DNA of 64,000 nucleotides from contig CAUZLF010000738.1 in assembly GCA_963580285.1 (NCBI GenBank), positions 372,001 through 436,000 of the forward strand. The letters run 5' to 3'. Shown in pieces: positions 1-63,175 of this stretch. The translations under genes were made by a program, and so were the position numbers. Below the pieces are notes generated by a model. It searched no databases. It was not told the DNA's origin and worked only from the letters and a program-made list of their open reading frames with translations. Position 1 is the first letter of the stretch, and each line of letters starts with the position of its first letter. This DNA comes from Lucinisca nassula (Eukaryota > Mollusca > Bivalvia > Lucinida > Lucinidae).

Positions 1-1145
1 TGAGGATGAACGTAATTGACAGATGGTGATATCCTCCCAAGTGGTGGTCTCACCATCGGGATGCATCGACTGACTTCCTGTAGCACCTAAAATAAAACTA
101 TCAAGGTCATTTAACTTTACCTAATTTTCGGAGGTCAACTCCCGTCCAACTGGTTGGAGTTTGAGCGGATCACTTACAATCCCCTGCGACTCTTTGATAT
201 TATCGGCCACTCTGGCCTCGGGCTCCCGATTTGAAGGATTGGGCACCCAGCATCCTTCCTCAAGGTTGTGATTTCCAGGTAACTTCTGTACCATGCATCC
301 CTCAATACTGCATGAATTCTTCTTTCCAGTAATTGTCTGAACAATGTACCCCTTTTTAACTTCACTACAATCCGCGTTTCCAGTATCCTTCGGTACCAAG
401 TACCCCTCTTTAATGTTACTTGAATCCGTGTTCATAGTATCTTTCGGTACCAAGTACCCTTCTTTAACCTGAAAAGCATCCGCGTTTTCAGTATCCTTCG
501 GTACCAAGTACCCCCTCTTTAATGTTACTTGAATCCATGTTCAAAGTATCTTTCGGTATCAAGTACCCTTAAATCTGAAAAGCATCCGCGTTATCAGTAT
601 CATTCTGTACCAAGTACCCCTCTTTAATGTTGCTTGAATCTGTGTTCACAGTATCTCTCGTTTTTAAAGACTCTTCTAAATCCAAACTGTTGAGTGACAG
701 GCTGCTGAAGGTTTCTTCATACTTCAAATCCAGCCAATCTTCGTATTCCTTAGAGGTACTTAGAGCTTTCTCTTTCGGGGTAGATGTACCAAATTTCTGA
801 CAGTAAACCCCATCAATCCAATCTCCGTAATTCTTCAGCGTCTCAGATTCTGTATCGGACTGTGCATCGTCCTGTTCACTGGTGTCAGGTTCTGAAAAAT
901 GGCCTTTGTTATCTTGAAGGGCCGGGCCTAGGCCTCTGGATCCGACCCACCGTCGTTTAAATCATCTTCATTCACCCGGTTAACATTGAATGATTCCTTC
1001 TTCTTATTAGGGCAATCTCTTTTAAAGTGACCCTCTTCATTACAGCCAAAACAGCGTGACGGAGATGAAGATCTCCCAGTGGCTGTATCACTCCTTGTAG
1101 GCGAGGCAGGCAGTTTGGTCTGGAACTTGGACTCACCAGCCTTAA
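1..1145 (-). pseudogene. Ty3/gypsy gag end, repeat linker and start of pol, left duplicate
   Basis: On the minus strand this carries the nucleocapsid and linker of a Ty3/gypsy-like polyprotein. A C-x2-C-x4-H-x4-C zinc knuckle (1012-1053; CFGCNEEGHFKRDC) would bind nucleic acid. It is followed by an acidic linker, an 18-aa repeat tract, and at 1-112 the segment just before the protease. An in-frame TAG lies shortly after the knuckle (near 925-930) and the linker continues in another frame, so either a gag-pol frameshift or decay is present. The block matches 25089-25200 plus 30992-32026 nearly base for base, but lacks the copy C insertion, so the C target is still empty here at 101-112. Small indels show it is non-functional. 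It ends at 1145, where copy A begins. Confidence 0.8.
290..660 (-). repeat. 18-aa (54-bp) tandem repeat in the gypsy linker, left duplicate
   Basis: Minus-strand translation repeats the pattern EGYLVPKDTxNxDxxxxK about five to six times, alternating two versions (NADAF-type and NTDSS-type). Units lose similarity toward low coordinates (KKGYIVQ, EGCMVQK, EGCWVPN). The tract lies between zinc knuckle and protease. Its function is unknown; the regular spacing suggests growth by slippage or unequal exchange. Confidence 0.75.
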
Positions 1146-1252
1146 CCCCCAGGTATTAGACTTCCTGCCTTGCCGTGGCCCTGGGGGCTCAATTCCCACT
1201 GGGCACATTGCCGCTGTGGTCTCTGTGCCCACTGGGAAGAGCTAAAGGAAGT
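1146..1252 (+). ncRNA. HDV-like self-cleaving ribozyme, 5' end of copy A
   Basis: Numbering from the first C of the element: P1 pairs nt 1-7 with 36-42 (CCCCCAG/CTGGGGG). P2 pairs 15-21 with 101-107 (ACTTCCT/AGGAAGT). P3 pairs 22-24 with 32-34 (GCC/GGC) around a 7-nt L3. P4 pairs 48-62 with 79-93 with one C-C mismatch. J4/2 is GAGCTAA, placing the candidate catalytic C at nt 97 (1242). Strand order and lengths match the nested double pseudoknot of HDV-like ribozymes, and cleavage would release the exact 5' end. Caveats: nt 1 is C, not the usual G, and P1.1 looks weak (one G-C pair). Inferred by hand folding only. Confidence 0.8.
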
Positions 1253-1695
1253 ACCACCCGTTTGCCGTGGGTGGCGTCCTGTAAGCCGGAAGAAGGGATC
1301 CTGGAGGTTGAGGGTTACCTGGGGTGGCAGTGCTTCAGGTACCCAACACGCCTCTTTGGTCTGGCTTTTCGGTGTAGACGGGTGGCCGTGCGGTCCGGCA
1401 CGGTCAATCGGCTGGTCGCGCCGAGCCCTAGAGATACCGCTTTGCTTTCTCTTCAACTCTTTTTGTATCTTTCCTGATACCAACCATATGCCCATTTACC
1501 TTACCCTTTTCTGTCTTTTTATCTCTAGAAGGCGGTGGCTAAACGGATCAATCGTGTAGGCATTTTGTTTATGCGAGTATATCTCACGTGTATCTCTAAC
1601 ACCTGCGAGTTGGATAACCACTCCATTATGGTGTTCCCTTGTAGGGCTCCACGGAGGGCGGAGAGCACTTGGGATGAAACTAGAAATTTTTCCTT

Positions 1696-12958: not shown

Positions 12959-15374
12959 AGCTCACCTGGGCCGAAGGCTCCAGGGGAGCTTATAGTATAG
13001 TGGGTCGTCCGTCGTCCGTCCACACTTTTGAGCAGCTATATCTCTGTATCCTGCAGGCTGATCTCAATCATTTCTCACCTGTAGCATGCCTCTGGTGGGG
13101 CATTGATGACATAAACTTTTTTTTGAAATCGCTCTAAAACTTTGGTTCCTATGGCAACCACAAGGTCCCATAGACTTACTATGGGAAAATGCTTGTCATC
13201 ACCGTAGCGCCTTCAGTTTTGATCGGATCTTTTTGAAACTTATATGTAAGGTGACTGGGGATAAAAACTCGGATGAGTTCGAAAACCGGCCAAGTCGGCC
13301 CATTTATCATAGAATTACGTCCCTTTGATTGCTGAAAATGCCCATTTTCGACCTTGTCATCACTGTAGCCCCTTCAGTTTTGATCGGATCTTTCTGAAAC
13401 TTATATGTAATGTGGCTGGGGATAAAACCTTGGATGAGTTCGAAAACCGGCCAAGTCCGCCGATTTATCATAGAGTTACGTCCCTTTGATTGCTGAAAAT
13501 GCCGATTTTTGACCTTGTCATCACCGTAGCCCCTTCAGTTTTGATCGGATCTTTCTGAAACTTATATGTAAGGTGGCTGTGGATAAAATCTCGGATGAGT
13601 TCGAAAACCGACCAAGTCGGCCCTTTTATCGTAGAGTTCTGTCCCTTTGATTGCTGAAAATGCTGATTTTTGACCTTGTCATCACTGTAGCCCTTTCAGT
13701 TTTGATCGAATCTTTCTGAAACTTATATGTAAAGTGGCTGGGGATAAAATCTTGGATGAGTTCGAAAACCAGCCAAGTTGGTCCATTTATCACAGAGAAA
13801 CGTCCCTTTGATTGCTGAAAATGCCGAATTTTGACCTTGTCATCACTGTAGCCCTTTCAGTTTTGATCGGATCTTTCTGAAACTTATATGCAAGGTGGCT
13901 GGGGATAAAGCCTCGGATGAGTTCGCATACCGGCAAAGGTGGCTTATTTATCATAGAGTTAGGTCCCTTTGATTGCTGAAAATGTTGATTTTTGACTTTG
14001 TCCACACTGTAGCCCCTTCAGTTTTGATCGGATCTTTCTGAAACTTATATGTAAGGTGGCTGGGGATAAAACCTCGGATGAGTTCGAAAACCGGCTAAGT
14101 TGCCCCATTAACTATATAGTTATGTCCCTTTGATGGCTGAAAATGTCGATATTTTACCTTGTCATCACCGTAGCCCCTTCAGTTTTGATCGAATCTTTCT
14201 GAAACCTATATGTAAGGTGACTGGAGATAAAACCTAGGATGAGTTTGAATACCGGCCCATTTATCATTGATTTACGTCCCTTTGATTGCTGAAAATGCCG
14301 ATTTTTGACCTTGTCATCACCATAGCCCCTTCAGTTTTGATCGGATCTTTCTGAAACTTATATGTAAGGTGGCTGGGGATAAAATCTTGGATGAGTTCGA
14401 AAACAGGCCAAGTCCGCCGATTTATCATAGAGTTACGTCCCTTTGATTGCTGAAAATGCCGATTTTTGACCTTGTCATCACCGTAGCCCCTTCAGTTTTG
14501 ATCGGATCTTTCTGAAACTTGTAGGATAAAATCTCGCATGAGATCGAAAACCGACCAAGTCGGCCCTTTTATCGTAGAGTTCTGTCCCTTTGATTGCTGA
14601 AAATGCTGAATTTTGACCTTGTCATCACTGTAGCCCCTTCAGTTTTGATCGGATTTTTCTGAAACTTATATGTAAGGTGGCTGGGGATGAAACCTCGGAT
14701 GAGTTCGAAAACTGGCCAAGTCGGCTCATTTATTTTTGAGTAACATCCCTTTGATTGCTAAAAATGCCAAATTTTGACCTTGTCATCACCGTAGCCCCTT
14801 CAGTTTTGATCGGATCTTTCTGAAACTTATATGTGAGGTGGCTGGGAATAAAATCTTGGATGAGTTTGAATACTGGCCAAGTCTGATCAGATCTTTCTGA
14901 AACTTACATGTAAGGTGGCTGGGAATAAAACCTCAGGTGAGTTCGAATACCGGCCAAGTCGGCACATAGAGTGACGTGCCTTTGATTGCTGAAAATGCCT
15001 ATTTTCGACATTGTTATCACTGCTGCCCCTTTAGTTTTGAACGGATCTTCATGAAACTTACAAACAAGGAAGTCAGGCAGAAAGCTTGGAGAAGTTTGAA
15101 AACTATTGTTTTTGAACTTGTCATCACCATAGCCACTTCAGTTTAGATAGGATCTTCTTAGCAAGTCAGGAATAAAAGCTTGAATGAGTTTGAAAACCGG
15201 GGAGGTCAGCCTGTTTATCATAGAGTTAAATTCTACTTGATTTTCAGAAAATGCATACCCTGTCATCACCATGTCCTCCCATAAAGCCTTCAGTAAAGGT
15301 TGGCACTTCCTTAAACTTTGAATCTGTTAGCTCAGGTGAGCGATACAGGACCAAGCTAGCTTGGTCCTCTTGTT
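12959..15374 (+). mobile_element. Helentron-like non-autonomous element (i) with a 161-bp array
   Basis: It splits the gypsy RT frame within a run of T: the host reads GCATTTTT before and TTGGC after, and frame is regained when it is removed. The 5' end is a hairpin (12959-12990) with AGCTC/GAGCT, CCTGG/CCAGG and a GAA loop, followed by a CGTCCGTCGTCC tract. The 3' end has a GGTGAGC subterminal inverted repeat of the start, a perfect 22-nt palindrome (15347-15368) and CTTGTT. Insertion between Ts and a 3' hairpin are Helentron-type traits; no Rep/helicase is encoded. Classification is inferred. Confidence 0.7.
13195..15135 (+). repeat. Tandem array, unit about 161 bp
   Basis: About twelve units marked by CCCTTTGATTGCTGAAAATG (13321, 13482, 13643, 13803, 13965 and on), CAGTTTTGATCGGATCTTTC and GGATGAGTTCGAAAACC. 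Spacing is 160-162 bp; later units are shortened and more diverged. It forms the core of element (i). Short open stretches in it are not genes. Confidence 0.85.
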
Positions 15375-15683: not shown

Positions 15684-15859
15684 CCCCCAGGTACTAGACT
15701 TCCTGCCTTGCCGTGGCCCTGGGGGCTCAATTCTCACTGGGCACATTGCTGCTGTGGCCTTGTGCCCACTGGGAAGAGCTGCCGTGGCCCTGGGGGCTCA
15801 ATTCTCACTGGGCACATTGCTGCTGTGGCCTTGTGCCCACTGGGAAGAGCTAAAGGAAG
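15684..15859 (+). ncRNA. HDV-like ribozyme of copy E with internal 71-nt duplication
   Basis: The P1, P2 and P3 5' strands are as in copy A, but the block from L3 to J4/2 (GCCGTGG...GAGCT) occurs twice in tandem (15710-15780, 15781-15851) before the P2 3' strand AGGAAGT (15853-15859). P4 carries a C-to-U change that keeps pairing as G-U. With two P1 3' strands and two P4 stems the normal fold needs a large bulge, so activity is doubtful. Confidence 0.55.
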
Positions 15860-16295
15860 TACCACCCGTTTGCCGTGGGTGGCGTCCCGTAAGCCGGATG
15901 AAGGGATCCTGGAGGCTGAGGGTTTTCGGAGTTCAGTGCTTCGGGTACCCAACACACCTCTTTGGCCTGGATTTCGGTAAGACGGGTGGTCGTGCGGTCC
16001 GGCACGGTCAATCGGCTGGTCGCGCCAAGCCCTAGAAATAACCTTTTACTTTCTCTTCCTTGTCTTTTGTATCAACCTGAATACACACCGTTTGCTCATA
16101 AAGTCTTTTCATAATCTTTCCATTTCTAGAAGGCGGCGGCTTAACGGACCAATCGTGCAGCTTCTTGCTCGTACGAGTATATCTTCTGTGTATCTCTAAC
16201 ACTTGAGGTAGGAAATCCACTCAATAAAAGTGTTCCCTTGTAGGGCTCCACGGTGGGCGGAGAGCACAGAGGACGAATTTTTTACTCTTTTCATC

Positions 16296-19666: not shown

Positions 19667-21981
19667 AGCTCACCAGAGCCGAAGGCTCCGGGGGAGCTTT
19701 TAGGATAGGCAGTTGTCCGTCGTCGTCTGCGTCGTCGTCGTCGTCGTCGTCGTCGTCTGCGTCTGCGTCTGCGTCGTCAACACTTTCAAACGACATCTCC
19801 TCTGAAACCACTGGGTCGATTGGGCCCAAATTTTATCTGTAGCATGCTTGGGTTGGGGGATTAAAAGTTTGTGTTTTTTATGAAAATCGGCTGTTCAGTT
19901 TGGTTGCTATAGCAACTTAGAGCTCCCATAGACTTATAATGGGGAAAATTGAAAAATGGCATTAACTGCCAAGCCTTTGCAGATATTGGAACAAAACTTT
20001 CATAGAAATGTTCCTTAAGCAATCTAGTATCTACCATATGATTTTAGGCCCACTGCTCAATTTTAATGGTTGCCATGGAAACCAAAATGCAAAAAATAGA
20101 AAAAAAATACTTAAAAAATCATCTCCTCAGAAACCGTATGCTCTATGAGGCTGAAAGTTTATGGAAATATTCACCATATTTGCCTTTACAGGTTTTGTGT
20201 TTTTTATGAAATTCGGCTCTTTAGTTTGGTTGCTATGGCAACTTAGATTTTCCATAGACTTATAATGGGGAAAATTGAAAAATGGCATTAACTACAAAGC
20301 CTTTGCAGATATTTTGACAAAACTTTCATAGAAATGTTCCTTGAGTAAACTTCTCTCAGCCATATGCTTTTATGTCAACCTGGGGGTCCAGTAGGTTGTG
20401 CCGGGGCCATGCCCCGCCCCCAGTACTTCATAAAATGACCTATATCTCAGAAACCTTACAGATCCCCACCCCTAAACCATATATATTCTTGTTCCTATTG
20501 ATAAGACGCATTCAGTGACACCAACCTGGAGGTCCTCCGGGATGTGCCGAGGCCATGCCCCACCCCCTCCACTTCATAAAAGGCCCAATATCTCGGAAAC
20601 CATTTAGATCCCCACCCCTGAACCCTATATACTCTTGTTCCTTATGATAAGACGCATTCAGTGACATCAAACTGGGGGTCCCCCGGGATGCCCCGGGGCC
20701 ATGTCCCGCCCCTCCATTTCATAAAAGGCCCAATATCTCAGAAACCTTACAGATCCCCACCCCTAAACCATGTATATTCTTGCTCCTTATGATAAGACGC
20801 ATTCATTGACCCCAAATTGGGGGTCTTCCGGGGTGCGCCGGAACTATGCCCCACCCCTTCACTTCACAAAAGGCCATATATCTCAGAAACTGTTCAGATC
20901 CCCACCCCTAAACCATATATGTTCTTGTTCATTATGATGAGACACATTCAGTGACACCAACCTGAGGGTCCCCAGGGATGTGCTGGGGCCATGCCCCACC
21001 CCCTCCATTTCATAATATCACAATATCTCGGAAACCTTACAGATCCCCACCCCTAAACCATATATATTCTTGTTCCTTATGATAAGACACTTTCATTGAC
21101 ACCAACCTGGGGGTCTCCCTGGGCCTTGCCCCACCCCTGCACTCACAAAAGGCCTTATATCTCAGATACTTTTCAGAGCCCCACCCCTAAACCATATATA
21201 TTCATCTTCCTTATGATAAGGCACATTCATTGACACCAGCTTGTGAGTCCCCGGGGCATGCCCGGGCCTTGCTCCACCGCTTGACTTCATTAAAAGCCAC
21301 ATATCTCAGAAATAGTTCAGATCCCCACCCCTAAACCATATATATTCTTGTTCCTTATGATAAGACTCATTCAGTCACACCAACTTGGGGGTCTCTTTGT
21401 GCTGAGGCAATGTGCCCCGCCCTTCCACTTCATTAAAGGCCATATATTTCAGAAACCATTCAAATCCCCACCCCATATTCATATATGTTCTTGTTCCTTA
21501 TTAATAGCACACCTACTGTAGGGGTGTCCGCAGGGGCCAGTCCTCTCCTTTATCACTTCATGAAAGGATATCTTGGAAACCGTTCAGATTCCCACCCCTA
21601 AACCATATATATACTTGGTCCTTATGATGAGACACATTTAGGGACAACAATCTTAGGCTTTCCTGGGAACGACAGGGCATGCTCCAACCCCTCCACTTTT
21701 ATCTCCAGCCATGAAGATCCCCACTGCTAAACCATATATATTCTTGTTCTTTGTGATAAGACACATTTAGTGATACCAACCAGGGCTCCATTGGGTCCAT
21801 GCCCCACCCCCTCTACTTCATAAAAGGCCTAATGTTTCATATACTGAGTCCACATTGATGCTCATTTGGATATGGGGGTTCATTTGGCAGATTAAAATGA
21901 TATCATGTTAAAATACATGGCTGCAATTTGGCAGTGCCCACCTGAGCTCTGGTGAGCATAGTGGCCCATGGGCCTCTTGTT
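19667..21981 (+). mobile_element. Helentron-like non-autonomous element (ii)
   Basis: Lies between the fifth T of GATTTTT and GTATATG of copy E ORF2; every other copy reads GATTTTTGTATATG, so the boundaries are exact to within the T run. The 5' hairpin has AGCTC/GAGCT and GAGCC/GGCTC with a GAA loop, followed by a long (GTC)n/TGCGTC tract (19715-19778). The 3' end has GGTGAGC, the palindrome GGCCCATGGGCC (21963-21974) and TCTTGTT. Ends match element (i); the interior does not. There is no coding capacity. Confidence 0.72.
20380..21840 (+). repeat. Tandem array, unit about 145 bp
   Basis: About ten units marked by GATCCCCACCCCTAAACCAT, ATATTCTTGTTCCTTATGAT and ATCTCAGAAACC, with starts at 20461, 20607, 20752 and 20897 (145-146 bp apart). 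Units decay toward the right. It is the core of element (ii). The preceding 19860-20380 holds two copies of a different repeat (TATAATGGGGAAAATTGAAA). Confidence 0.82.
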
Positions 21982-25200: not shown

Positions 25201-25307
25201 CCCCCAGGTATTAGACTTCCTGCCTTGCCGTGGCCCTGGGGGCTCAATTCCCACTGGGCACATTGCCGCTGTGGTCTCTGTGCCCACTGGGAAGAGCTAA
25301 AGGAAGT
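25201..25307 (+). ncRNA. HDV-like self-cleaving ribozyme, copy C
   Basis: Same 107-nt fold as in copy A: P1 25201-25207/25236-25242, P2 25215-25221/25301-25307, P3 25222-25224/25232-25234, P4 25248-25262/25279-25293, candidate catalytic C at 25297. Nucleotide 1 follows the target duplication directly, so the predicted cut is exactly the genomic 5' junction. Confidence 0.8.
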
Positions 25308-32026: not shown

Positions 32027-32133
32027 CCCCCAGGTATTAGACTTCCTGCCTTGCCGTGGTCCTGGGGGCTCAATTCCCACTGGGCACATTGCCGCTGTGG
32101 TCTCTGTGCCCACTGGGAAGAGCTAAAGGAAGT
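32027..32133 (+). ncRNA. HDV-like self-cleaving ribozyme, copy D
   Basis: Same fold as copy A. The one stem difference is C-to-U at nt 34 (GTGGTCCTG), which turns the P3 closing G-C into a G-U pair and so keeps the stem. Candidate catalytic C at 32123. Confidence 0.78.
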
Positions 32134-40318: not shown

Positions 40319-40490
40319 GGGCCCGATAGCTCAGTGGTAGAGCATCCGCTTCGGGAATGGGAGGTCGCTGGTTCGATCCCCTGCCGCGCCATACCAAAGG
40401 CGTGAAAAATGATACTAGGACCTCCCTTGGCTGACGCTCGCATTATCAGGGGAAGTCCTAGGAAGATAATTGAAGGCAGGTAAGTATTTG
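40319..40490 (+). mobile_element. tRNA-derived SINE, partial
   Basis: The head is tRNA-like, with an A box (TAGCTCAGTGG) and B box (GGTTCGATCCC) at normal spacing, then CATACCAAAGGCGTGAAAAA and TACTAG as in the longer SINE at 57903. It lacks a good anticodon stem and is not a functional tRNA. The tail is truncated or diverged after about 40490. Confidence 0.75.
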
Positions 40491-44955: not shown

Positions 44956-45062
44956 CCCCCAGGTATTAGACTTCCTGCCTTGCCGTGGCCCTGGGGGCTC
45001 AATTCCCACTGGGCACATTGCCGCTGTGGTCTCTGTGCCCACTGGGAAGAGCTAAAGGAAGT
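44956..45062 (+). ncRNA. HDV-like self-cleaving ribozyme, copy G
   Basis: Identical in all stems to copy A: P1 44956-44962/44991-44997, P2 44970-44976/45056-45062, candidate catalytic C 45052. Confidence 0.78.
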
Positions 45063-45598: not shown

Positions 45599-45705
45599 CC
45601 CCCAGGTATTAGACTTCCTGCCTTGCCGTGGCCCTGGGGGCTCAATTCCCACTGGGCACATTGCCGCTGTGGTCTTTGTGCCCACTGGGAAGAGCTAAAG
45701 GAAGT
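45599..45705 (+). ncRNA. HDV-like self-cleaving ribozyme, copy F
   Basis: Same fold. The only difference from copy A is in the P4 loop (TCTTTG for TCTCTG), outside all stems. Cleavage is predicted before 45599; candidate catalytic C at 45695. Confidence 0.8.
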
Positions 45706-63068: not shown

Positions 63069-63175
63069 CCCCCAGGTATTAGACTTCCTGCCTTGCCGTG
63101 GCCCTGGGGGCTCAATTCCCACTGGGCACATTGCCGCTGTGGTCTCTGTGCCCACTGGGAAGAGCTAAAGGAAGT
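63069..63175 (+). ncRNA. HDV-like self-cleaving ribozyme, copy J
   Basis: Same sequence as copy A in every stem: P1 63069-63075/63104-63110, P2 63083-63089/63169-63175, candidate catalytic C 63165. It shows that the 5' end is the same in a fifth, unrelated insertion site. Confidence 0.78.

Follow-up and report, generated by a model that had tools for sequence, protein, structure and literature searches.

A candidate HDV-like ribozyme at the 5' end of an I-superfamily LINE in the bivalve Lucinisca nassula

Described ribozymes at the 5' ends of LINEs

The HDV ribozyme starts with G1, and HDV-like ribozymes follow a rule in J4/2 according to which the catalytic C precedes NAA (CNAA). R2 ribozymes typically have a P1 of 6 to 7 bp, a P2 of at least 5 bp, and a variable P4; the G of L3 pairs with a U in HDV-like ribozymes; and the ribozymes of the LINEs R4, Dong, and baggins cleave at the 5' end of the element (PMC3774820). 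In five published ribozymes of the trypanosomatid L1Tc/ingi clade, C1 is the cleavage end, and the trypanosomatid ribozymes differ from those of R2 and HDV in the orientation of the P1 G-C pairs and in P1.1 (PMC4035085). The 5' primer given for L1Tc begins CCCTGGC, and Pr77 of L1Tc is reported to act as a promoter that yields transcripts from +1 and has a downstream promoter element, CGTG, at +25 to +28 (PMC4748587); in the published account, a change in CGTG affects the P3 loop, and the promoter and ribozyme functions coexist.

We analyzed 64,000 nucleotides of the L. nassula genome (the window), with nt n of the element corresponding to window position 1145+n, and whole-genome searches covered 2.93 Gb in 696 contigs. 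Among published systems, the element at this locus comes closest to L1TcRz/Pr77, with which it has in common a predicted HDV-like fold at the exact 5' end of an endonuclease-reverse transcriptase-RNase H LINE, a C1 start, and CGTG; the 5' hallmark of L1Tc/ingi elements, consisting of a C1 start, a predicted ribozyme, and CGTG in the first ~35 nt, is present here in all of its parts. In contrast to L1Tc, the element has a long P4 (14 pairs) and a block of 107 nt rather than 77, it has two ORFs and an animal host, and its CGTG lies at +29 rather than +25. The initial annotation had listed the C at nt 1 and a poor P1.1 as weak points of a ribozyme assignment. Both correspond to the deviations in P1 orientation and P1.1 described for L1Tc/ingi, and C1 no longer counts as a weakness because the five published L1Tc/ingi-clade ribozymes cleave at this same end (PMC4035085).

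Other systems are more distant. The likeness to R2 lies in an HDV-like ribozyme that frees LINE RNA from a cotranscript, which is a prediction for the element described here; the endonuclease of R2 is of another type. R2 has a fixed 28S target, and its P1 often uses 28S bases (PMC3774820), whereas P1 of the present element lies wholly inside the element and the flanks vary. R4, Dong, and baggins represent other LINE lineages and are likened by description, not by sequence. Among the papers listed by a literature search, largely those outside subscription, no title or abstract dealt with an HDV-like ribozyme in a molluscan I-superfamily element. We regard the block as a convincing candidate, on sequence data, for a new HDV-like ribozyme in an animal I-superfamily LINE.

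The element and its predicted fold

The window contains six near-identical copies of the 5' end of the element together with a seventh, diverged copy at 15684 (Table 1). Over 555 nt, the copies at 25201, 32027, 44956, 45599, and 63069 are 98 to 99% identical to the copy at 1146, and every element piece found by BLAST lies on the plus strand. The element is ~5.78 kb in length and ends in a 3' tail of ATC repeats. A Pfam search with the 455-aa ORF1 product was without match. The domain set of ORF2, which we take to be a mark of the I superfamily, supports the assignment of the element to the I-superfamily LINEs. In the copy at 15684, a 71-nt tandem duplication at 15709-15851 (2.0 copies, 100%) doubles the segment from L3 to J4/2. 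The window also holds a tRNA-like match at 40320-40391 (RF00005, 35 bits) and tandem arrays at 13192-14883 and 20376-21501, with units of 161 nt and 145 nt.

Genome-wide, there are 2,130 exact matches (1,037 + 1,093) to the 42-mer that spans P1 to P1', and 0 to a reversed-pattern control. Among the 41 matches listed in a separate search, 28 are on contig C13 (139.9 of 2,926 Mb), which would fit an accumulation of recent copies on that contig. On contig C1, a dense, strand-coherent cluster of element 5' ends occupies 221.07-221.50 Mb, mostly on the minus strand and then with nine consecutive plus-strand copies.

Table 1. Window positions of the element's ORFs, of ribozyme copies, and of the parts of the predicted fold in the copy at 1146
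Feature	Position	Strand	Remarks
P1 5' strand, CCCCCAGG, nt 1-8	1146..1153	+	Start of the element; cleavage predicted 5' of C1 or, alternatively, between C1 and C2
P2 5' strand, ACUUCCU, nt 15-21	1160..1166	+	
P3 5' strand, GCC, nt 22-24	1167..1169	+	
L3, UUGCCGU, nt 25-31	1170..1176	+	Sequence; alignment to RF00094
CGTG, +29 to +32, over L3/P3	1174..1177	+	Letters equal to L1Tc Pr77 downstream promoter element
P3 3' strand, GGC, nt 32-34	1177..1179	+	
P1 3' strand, CCUGGGGG, nt 35-42	1180..1187	+	
P4 5' strand, nt 48-62	1193..1207	+	
P4 3' strand, nt 79-93	1224..1238	+	
J4/2, GAGCUAA, nt 94-100	1239..1245	+	Candidate catalytic C97 at 1242
P2 3' strand, AGGAAGU, nt 101-107	1246..1252	+	
Hairpin CCACCC/GGGTGG, loop GTTTGCCGT	1254..1274	+	Pairing by eye
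Subfamily-2 copy	15684..15860	+	Ribozyme with perfect 71-nt tandem duplication
Ribozyme copy	25201..25307	+	Long uninterrupted ORF1 and ORF2; exact target duplication
ORF1, 455 aa	25751..27118	+	CCHC-type cysteine/histidine repeats read by eye
ORF2, 1228 aa	27144..30830	+	APE endonuclease, reverse transcriptase, RNase H
Ribozyme copy	32027..32133	+	Exact target duplication; C34U leaves P3 pair as G-U
Ribozyme copy	44956..45062	+	Belongs to an element that the 45599 insertion splits at nt ~643
Ribozyme copy	45599..45705	+	Nested in sense within the 44956 element
Ribozyme copy	63069..63175	+	Close to window end

All seven window copies that start at nt 1 contain an HDV-type nested pseudoknot, P1-P2-P3-P1'-P4-P2', with its parts in order, and the description of P1, P2, P3, L3, P4, and J4/2 in the initial annotation is accurate in that each part is present in the sequence. 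P2 comprises 7 bp (15-21 with 101-107), with 79 nt between its strands. P3 is a 3-bp GCC/GGC helix that encloses a 7-nt L3 in which the expected U and G are present, U25 and G30 having the same spacing as the corresponding U and G of HDV L3. P4 consists of 14 pairs and one C/C mismatch (48-62 with 79-93), and J4/2 lies directly before P2' and fits the CNAA rule. P1 had been described as 7 bp from nt 1; it does start at nt 1, but up to 8 bp can be formed (1-8 with 35-42), and its register is ambiguous by one base. In register A, P1 begins at C1, a 7-bp helix leaves C35 as a spacer to P3, and P1.1, judged by eye, is a single pair, G27-C43; in register B, P1 begins at C2, its 7 bp are stacked on P3, and P1.1, again by eye, has two pairs, G27-C43 and C28-G42. 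Register B would place cleavage between C1 and C2, one base inside the element. The minimum free energy fold of the block given by RNAfold, which is pseudoknot free, contains P1 (2-8 with 35-41), P3, and P4 at -48.4 kcal/mol (z of -2.77; 2 of 200 shuffles were equally good). This nested fold leaves C1 unpaired and also pairs G42-C45 with G94-C97, so that C97 would be occluded in it.

A descriptor composed of a 7-bp P1, a 3-bp P3, a U-first L3 with G, CNAA, and P2 matched the plus strand of the window at 14 starts, corresponding to seven places in two registers, and all seven were element starts; the minus strand of the window gave no match. In 2.56 Mb of first-order Markov sequence, there were 13 descriptor matches with a P2 of at least 5 bp, one of them with a P2 of 7 bp. 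When nt 1-112 were subjected to 150,000 dinucleotide shuffles with the start fixed, 23 reached a P2 of at least 5 bp and only 7 reached a P2 of at least 7 bp. When a comparable descriptor was run over both strands of loci L001-L072 (568,608 bases), it produced three matches lacking the family L3 motif, namely, one changed family copy (L036) and two chance matches with a 5-bp P2.

The Rfam model for HDV, RF00094, gave a different picture. All 89 model positions align end to end with window positions 1145-1254, but the score was 16.4 bits (E of 4.3 over 4,227 families) against a cut-off of 50, and the element departs from HDV in C1, in a reduced or reversed P1.1, and in its long P4. No match in the 64-kb window reached the cut-off; at an E of 10 or below, none was reported for the relatives L043 and L010, nor for the whole genome, where 86 of 22,449 first-look candidates were scored. 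The covariance-model search put forward in the initial annotation spoke against the assignment, and it is the descriptor match, the position, and the conservation that carry the HDV-like family call, rather than the Rfam score.

Target duplications were established for three of the seven window copies: caaggtcattt and gccttaa end exactly before C1 in the copies at 25201 and 32027, respectively, and at 45599 the boundary between cagtcaagt and C1 is ambiguous by one base. The copy at 1146 has a 5' flank in common with the 32027 copy but no matching 3' duplication. Four copies had been said to start at nt 1 directly after a duplication; such a start was confirmed exactly in two copies and within one base in a third. 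CCCCCAGG forms the start of 58 of 62 distinct copies, the others beginning with CCCCAAGG (twice), ACCCCAGG, and CCCCCCGG; these 62 were collected with a core regex that requires nt 17-47 to be nearly unchanged and misses copies altered there, such as L036. Of the 59 copies with a CCCCC start, only 3 have a C immediately before the element. C1 is favored as the RNA end because the DNA copies mostly start with CCCCCAGG and a preceding C is rare.

Conservation, relatives, and rival explanations

A distant, Solemya-associated ORF1, taken as query, gave 94 ORF1 matches in the genome, from which 30 loci were fetched without selection for the ribozyme. In 26 of these, the descriptor motif was found ~550 to 710 nt upstream of the ORF1 match with the family letters kept; L050, whose own P1 contains one mismatch, matched only by way of another P1 strand located upstream, and P2 is shortened in L062. 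The motif was absent from L047, L052, L054, and L055; the 5' UTR match of the first three begins only past the ribozyme region, whereas none was seen in L055. Ten representatives were aligned over a core defined as nt 1-49 plus nt 90-107 (67 nt), and the core was identical to that of the window copy at 67 of 67 positions in eight of nine comparisons and at 66 of 67 in the ninth (L064). Between the window copy and L010, identity drops stepwise away from the 5' end: it is 92% in distal P4, 97% in nt 108-140, 85% in nt 141-300, and 73% in nt 301-550, and ORF1 is 58% identical, with 36% identity (117/322) at its third codon positions. Differences in distal P4 next to an invariant core point to constraint more than to a single recent exchange, but subfamilies may also have exchanged 5' ends. 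The initial interpretation is borne out in part: the fold, its exact 5' position, and the I-superfamily type of ORF2 are supported, and the core is extremely conserved between subfamilies, but the grounds for doubt named in advance gave mixed results. Two exact 42-mers probably belong to other families; they are 556 and 590 nt away from ORF1 matches whose frames are 468 and 508 aa long. In one natural copy (L043:952-1028), P4 is reduced to a 5-bp hairpin by loss between CCCACTGGG repeats; the short P4 looks like a private deletion because the exact 40-mer occurs once in the genome.

The letters of P1 and P2 are constant across all subfamilies seen, and covariation cannot be scored where no pair varies between subfamilies. 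In an alignment of 12 of 26 distinct sequences, from which those with P1 or P2 changes were left out, P1 and P2 are invariant, P3 has one G-U, and P4 has one-sided changes only, with four unpaired cells; compensatory changes in P1, P2, and P3 are absent from these 12. Among the 62 copies, pairing in P1 or P2 is broken in six and P3 contains a G-U in one, and there are no compensated changes in this set, for which the regex on nt 17-47 had excluded P1 and P3 double changes beforehand. Loss of P1/P2 pairing had been named as grounds for doubting the ribozyme: between subfamilies, both pairing and letters are kept, and the uncompensated changes are confined to those six single copies, as expected of decaying copies. 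The same constancy of the P1, P2, and L3 letters, even where compensated changes would be permissible, could be explained if the block were conserved mainly at the DNA level as an internal RNA polymerase II promoter, with a start at C1 and CGTG setting the 5' end and the pseudoknot inactive or secondary. CGTG at +29 to +32 is compatible with this explanation, as is the promoter activity reported for L1Tc Pr77, whose transcripts begin at +1 (PMC4748587); CGTG occupies 29-32 in all 62 copies, but the regex that selected them demands it. A promoter has no need, however, of a correctly spaced pseudoknot with a P2 of 7 bp or of GCUAA in J4/2, and we regard this explanation as unlikely. It is also not exclusive of a ribozyme, because both functions coexist in L1Tc.

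Relatives in other species were sought through ORF2, which has 1,655 related proteins; named rows among the best 120 include a sea spider (Nymphon) as well as assemblies labelled Candidatus Thiodiazotropha and Lucinoma symbiont. Bacterial assemblies with such symbiont labels probably carry host DNA. A scan of genome contigs for relatives found three Solemya-symbiont contigs and one Sulfurovum MAG, and viral contigs contained no ORF2 relatives. The 78 matches of TTTGCCGTGGGTNGCG in viral contigs, two of which have a loosely similar preceding motif, were taken as chance. Among 210 genomes of the order of the Solemya symbiont, 9 had a match; L079, L088, and L089 were set aside as too distant, their loose descriptor matches having arisen when a P1 of 6 pairs was allowed.

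The only relative with sequence upstream of the common 5' UTR is L040, from a Solemya velum symbiont assembly, with an ORF2 that is 51% identical. From J4/2 onwards, 254 of the 448 bases aligned with the element are identical. Neither the descriptor nor Rfam detects an HDV core in L040, and no P3, L3, or P1 could be placed in it. At the position of P2, there is a 9-bp helix, GTTGCCCCC/GGGGGCAAC, made up of other letters; 3 of its 4,870 9-mers, the one at the P2 position included, have such a partner 30 to 120 nt upstream. The lack of the core in this sequence argues against an ancient ribozyme that every relative has kept unchanged. L040 keeps the GTTTGCCGT loop letters of the downstream hairpin, the stem there being CAACC/GGTTG. 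Within the 5' UTR at 1254-1695, blocks common to the Solemya-associated relatives comprise GTTTGCCGTGGGT in L040 and TAGACGGG, CAATCGGCT, and GGGCTC in both L040 and L042. Such conserved blocks beyond the ribozyme suggest, at the level of sequence comparison, further functional RNA. The persistence of the wider 5' UTR as far as these relatives, the hairpin loop included, and the different helix of L040 at the P2 position, where the HDV core is lacking, would also be in accord with a structured, noncatalytic 5' UTR that serves translation or the binding of the ORF1 protein or reverse transcriptase and resembles an HDV fold by accident. The L3 letters, GCUAA in J4/2, the stacking of P1 on P3, and the position at nt 1 all fit HDV-like ribozymes, however, and make such a coincidence improbable. 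Least credible of all is a C/G-rich LINE leader that matches the descriptor by chance and without function, for which favorable composition (the 23 shuffles with a P2 of at least 5 bp) and the weak Rfam score can be cited, but against which stand the identity of all 67 core bases in subfamilies whose ORF1 is only 58% identical and the mere 7 of 150,000 shuffles with a P2 of at least 7 bp.

Proposed mechanism and significance

We consider it likely, from the sequence of the block, its potential to fold, its exact 5' position, its conservation, and the class of the element, all of which were observed, that the first ~107 nt constitute an HDV-like self-cleaving ribozyme that frees the element RNA from longer transcripts. 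A copy would be transcribed within a longer host or LINE transcript, and its RNA would fold in the cell into P1, P2, P3, and P4, with C97 of J4/2 acting as the HDV catalytic C. Cleavage just 5' of C1 would then release from the cotranscript an element RNA whose first base is also that of the DNA copies; the freed RNA would keep the ribozyme for the next round and would be translated and retrotransposed. By analogy with trypanosomatid L1Tc, the ribozyme DNA probably also holds a downstream-type promoter motif in the form of CGTG and may have a promoter role as well.

The genomic setting bears on cotranscription. Relatives of the element were recognized in 17 of the 62 flanks; 13 of these are in sense orientation and 4 in antisense, with one of the 13 falling short of the junction. 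Among the first 100 of the 2,130 places of the 42-mer, neighbors within 50 kb are on the same strand in 33 of 37 cases (12 of 13 when the cluster on contig C1 is left out), and neighbors beyond 1 Mb are on the same strand in 21 of 50. This pattern of same-strand neighbors could also stem from segmental duplication; the copies at 1146 and 32027 share flanks. A copy nested in sense lies exactly where a ribozyme would be useful.

According to PMC10294476, the I superfamily is represented across molluscs by just two reported clades, Nimb and Ingi, besides an unknown clade in octopus, and for that reason the element may be Ingi. We put forward only tentatively, and as doubtful, the more specific reading that it is an Ingi-clade LINE whose C1-start ribozyme and CGTG are the animal counterpart of the trypanosomatid Pr77 hallmark. 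If this were true, the combination of promoter and ribozyme would be ancestral to the clade and kept since animals and kinetoplastids parted, and the ribozyme would release sense-nested copies from shared transcripts in this genome.

If the ribozyme is active, an animal I-superfamily LINE would join the lineages that use HDV-like ribozymes, with about two thousand exact 42-nt front parts in one genome and with a C1 start as in the trypanosomatid L1Tc/ingi elements. Its many copies with a single core sequence make tests straightforward, both in vitro and with RNA from tissue, and the element allows us to ask whether a promoter-plus-ribozyme 5' end is ancestral to the clade. Since the Rfam HDV model misses this element at its cut-off, more such ribozymes may hide in animal genomes.
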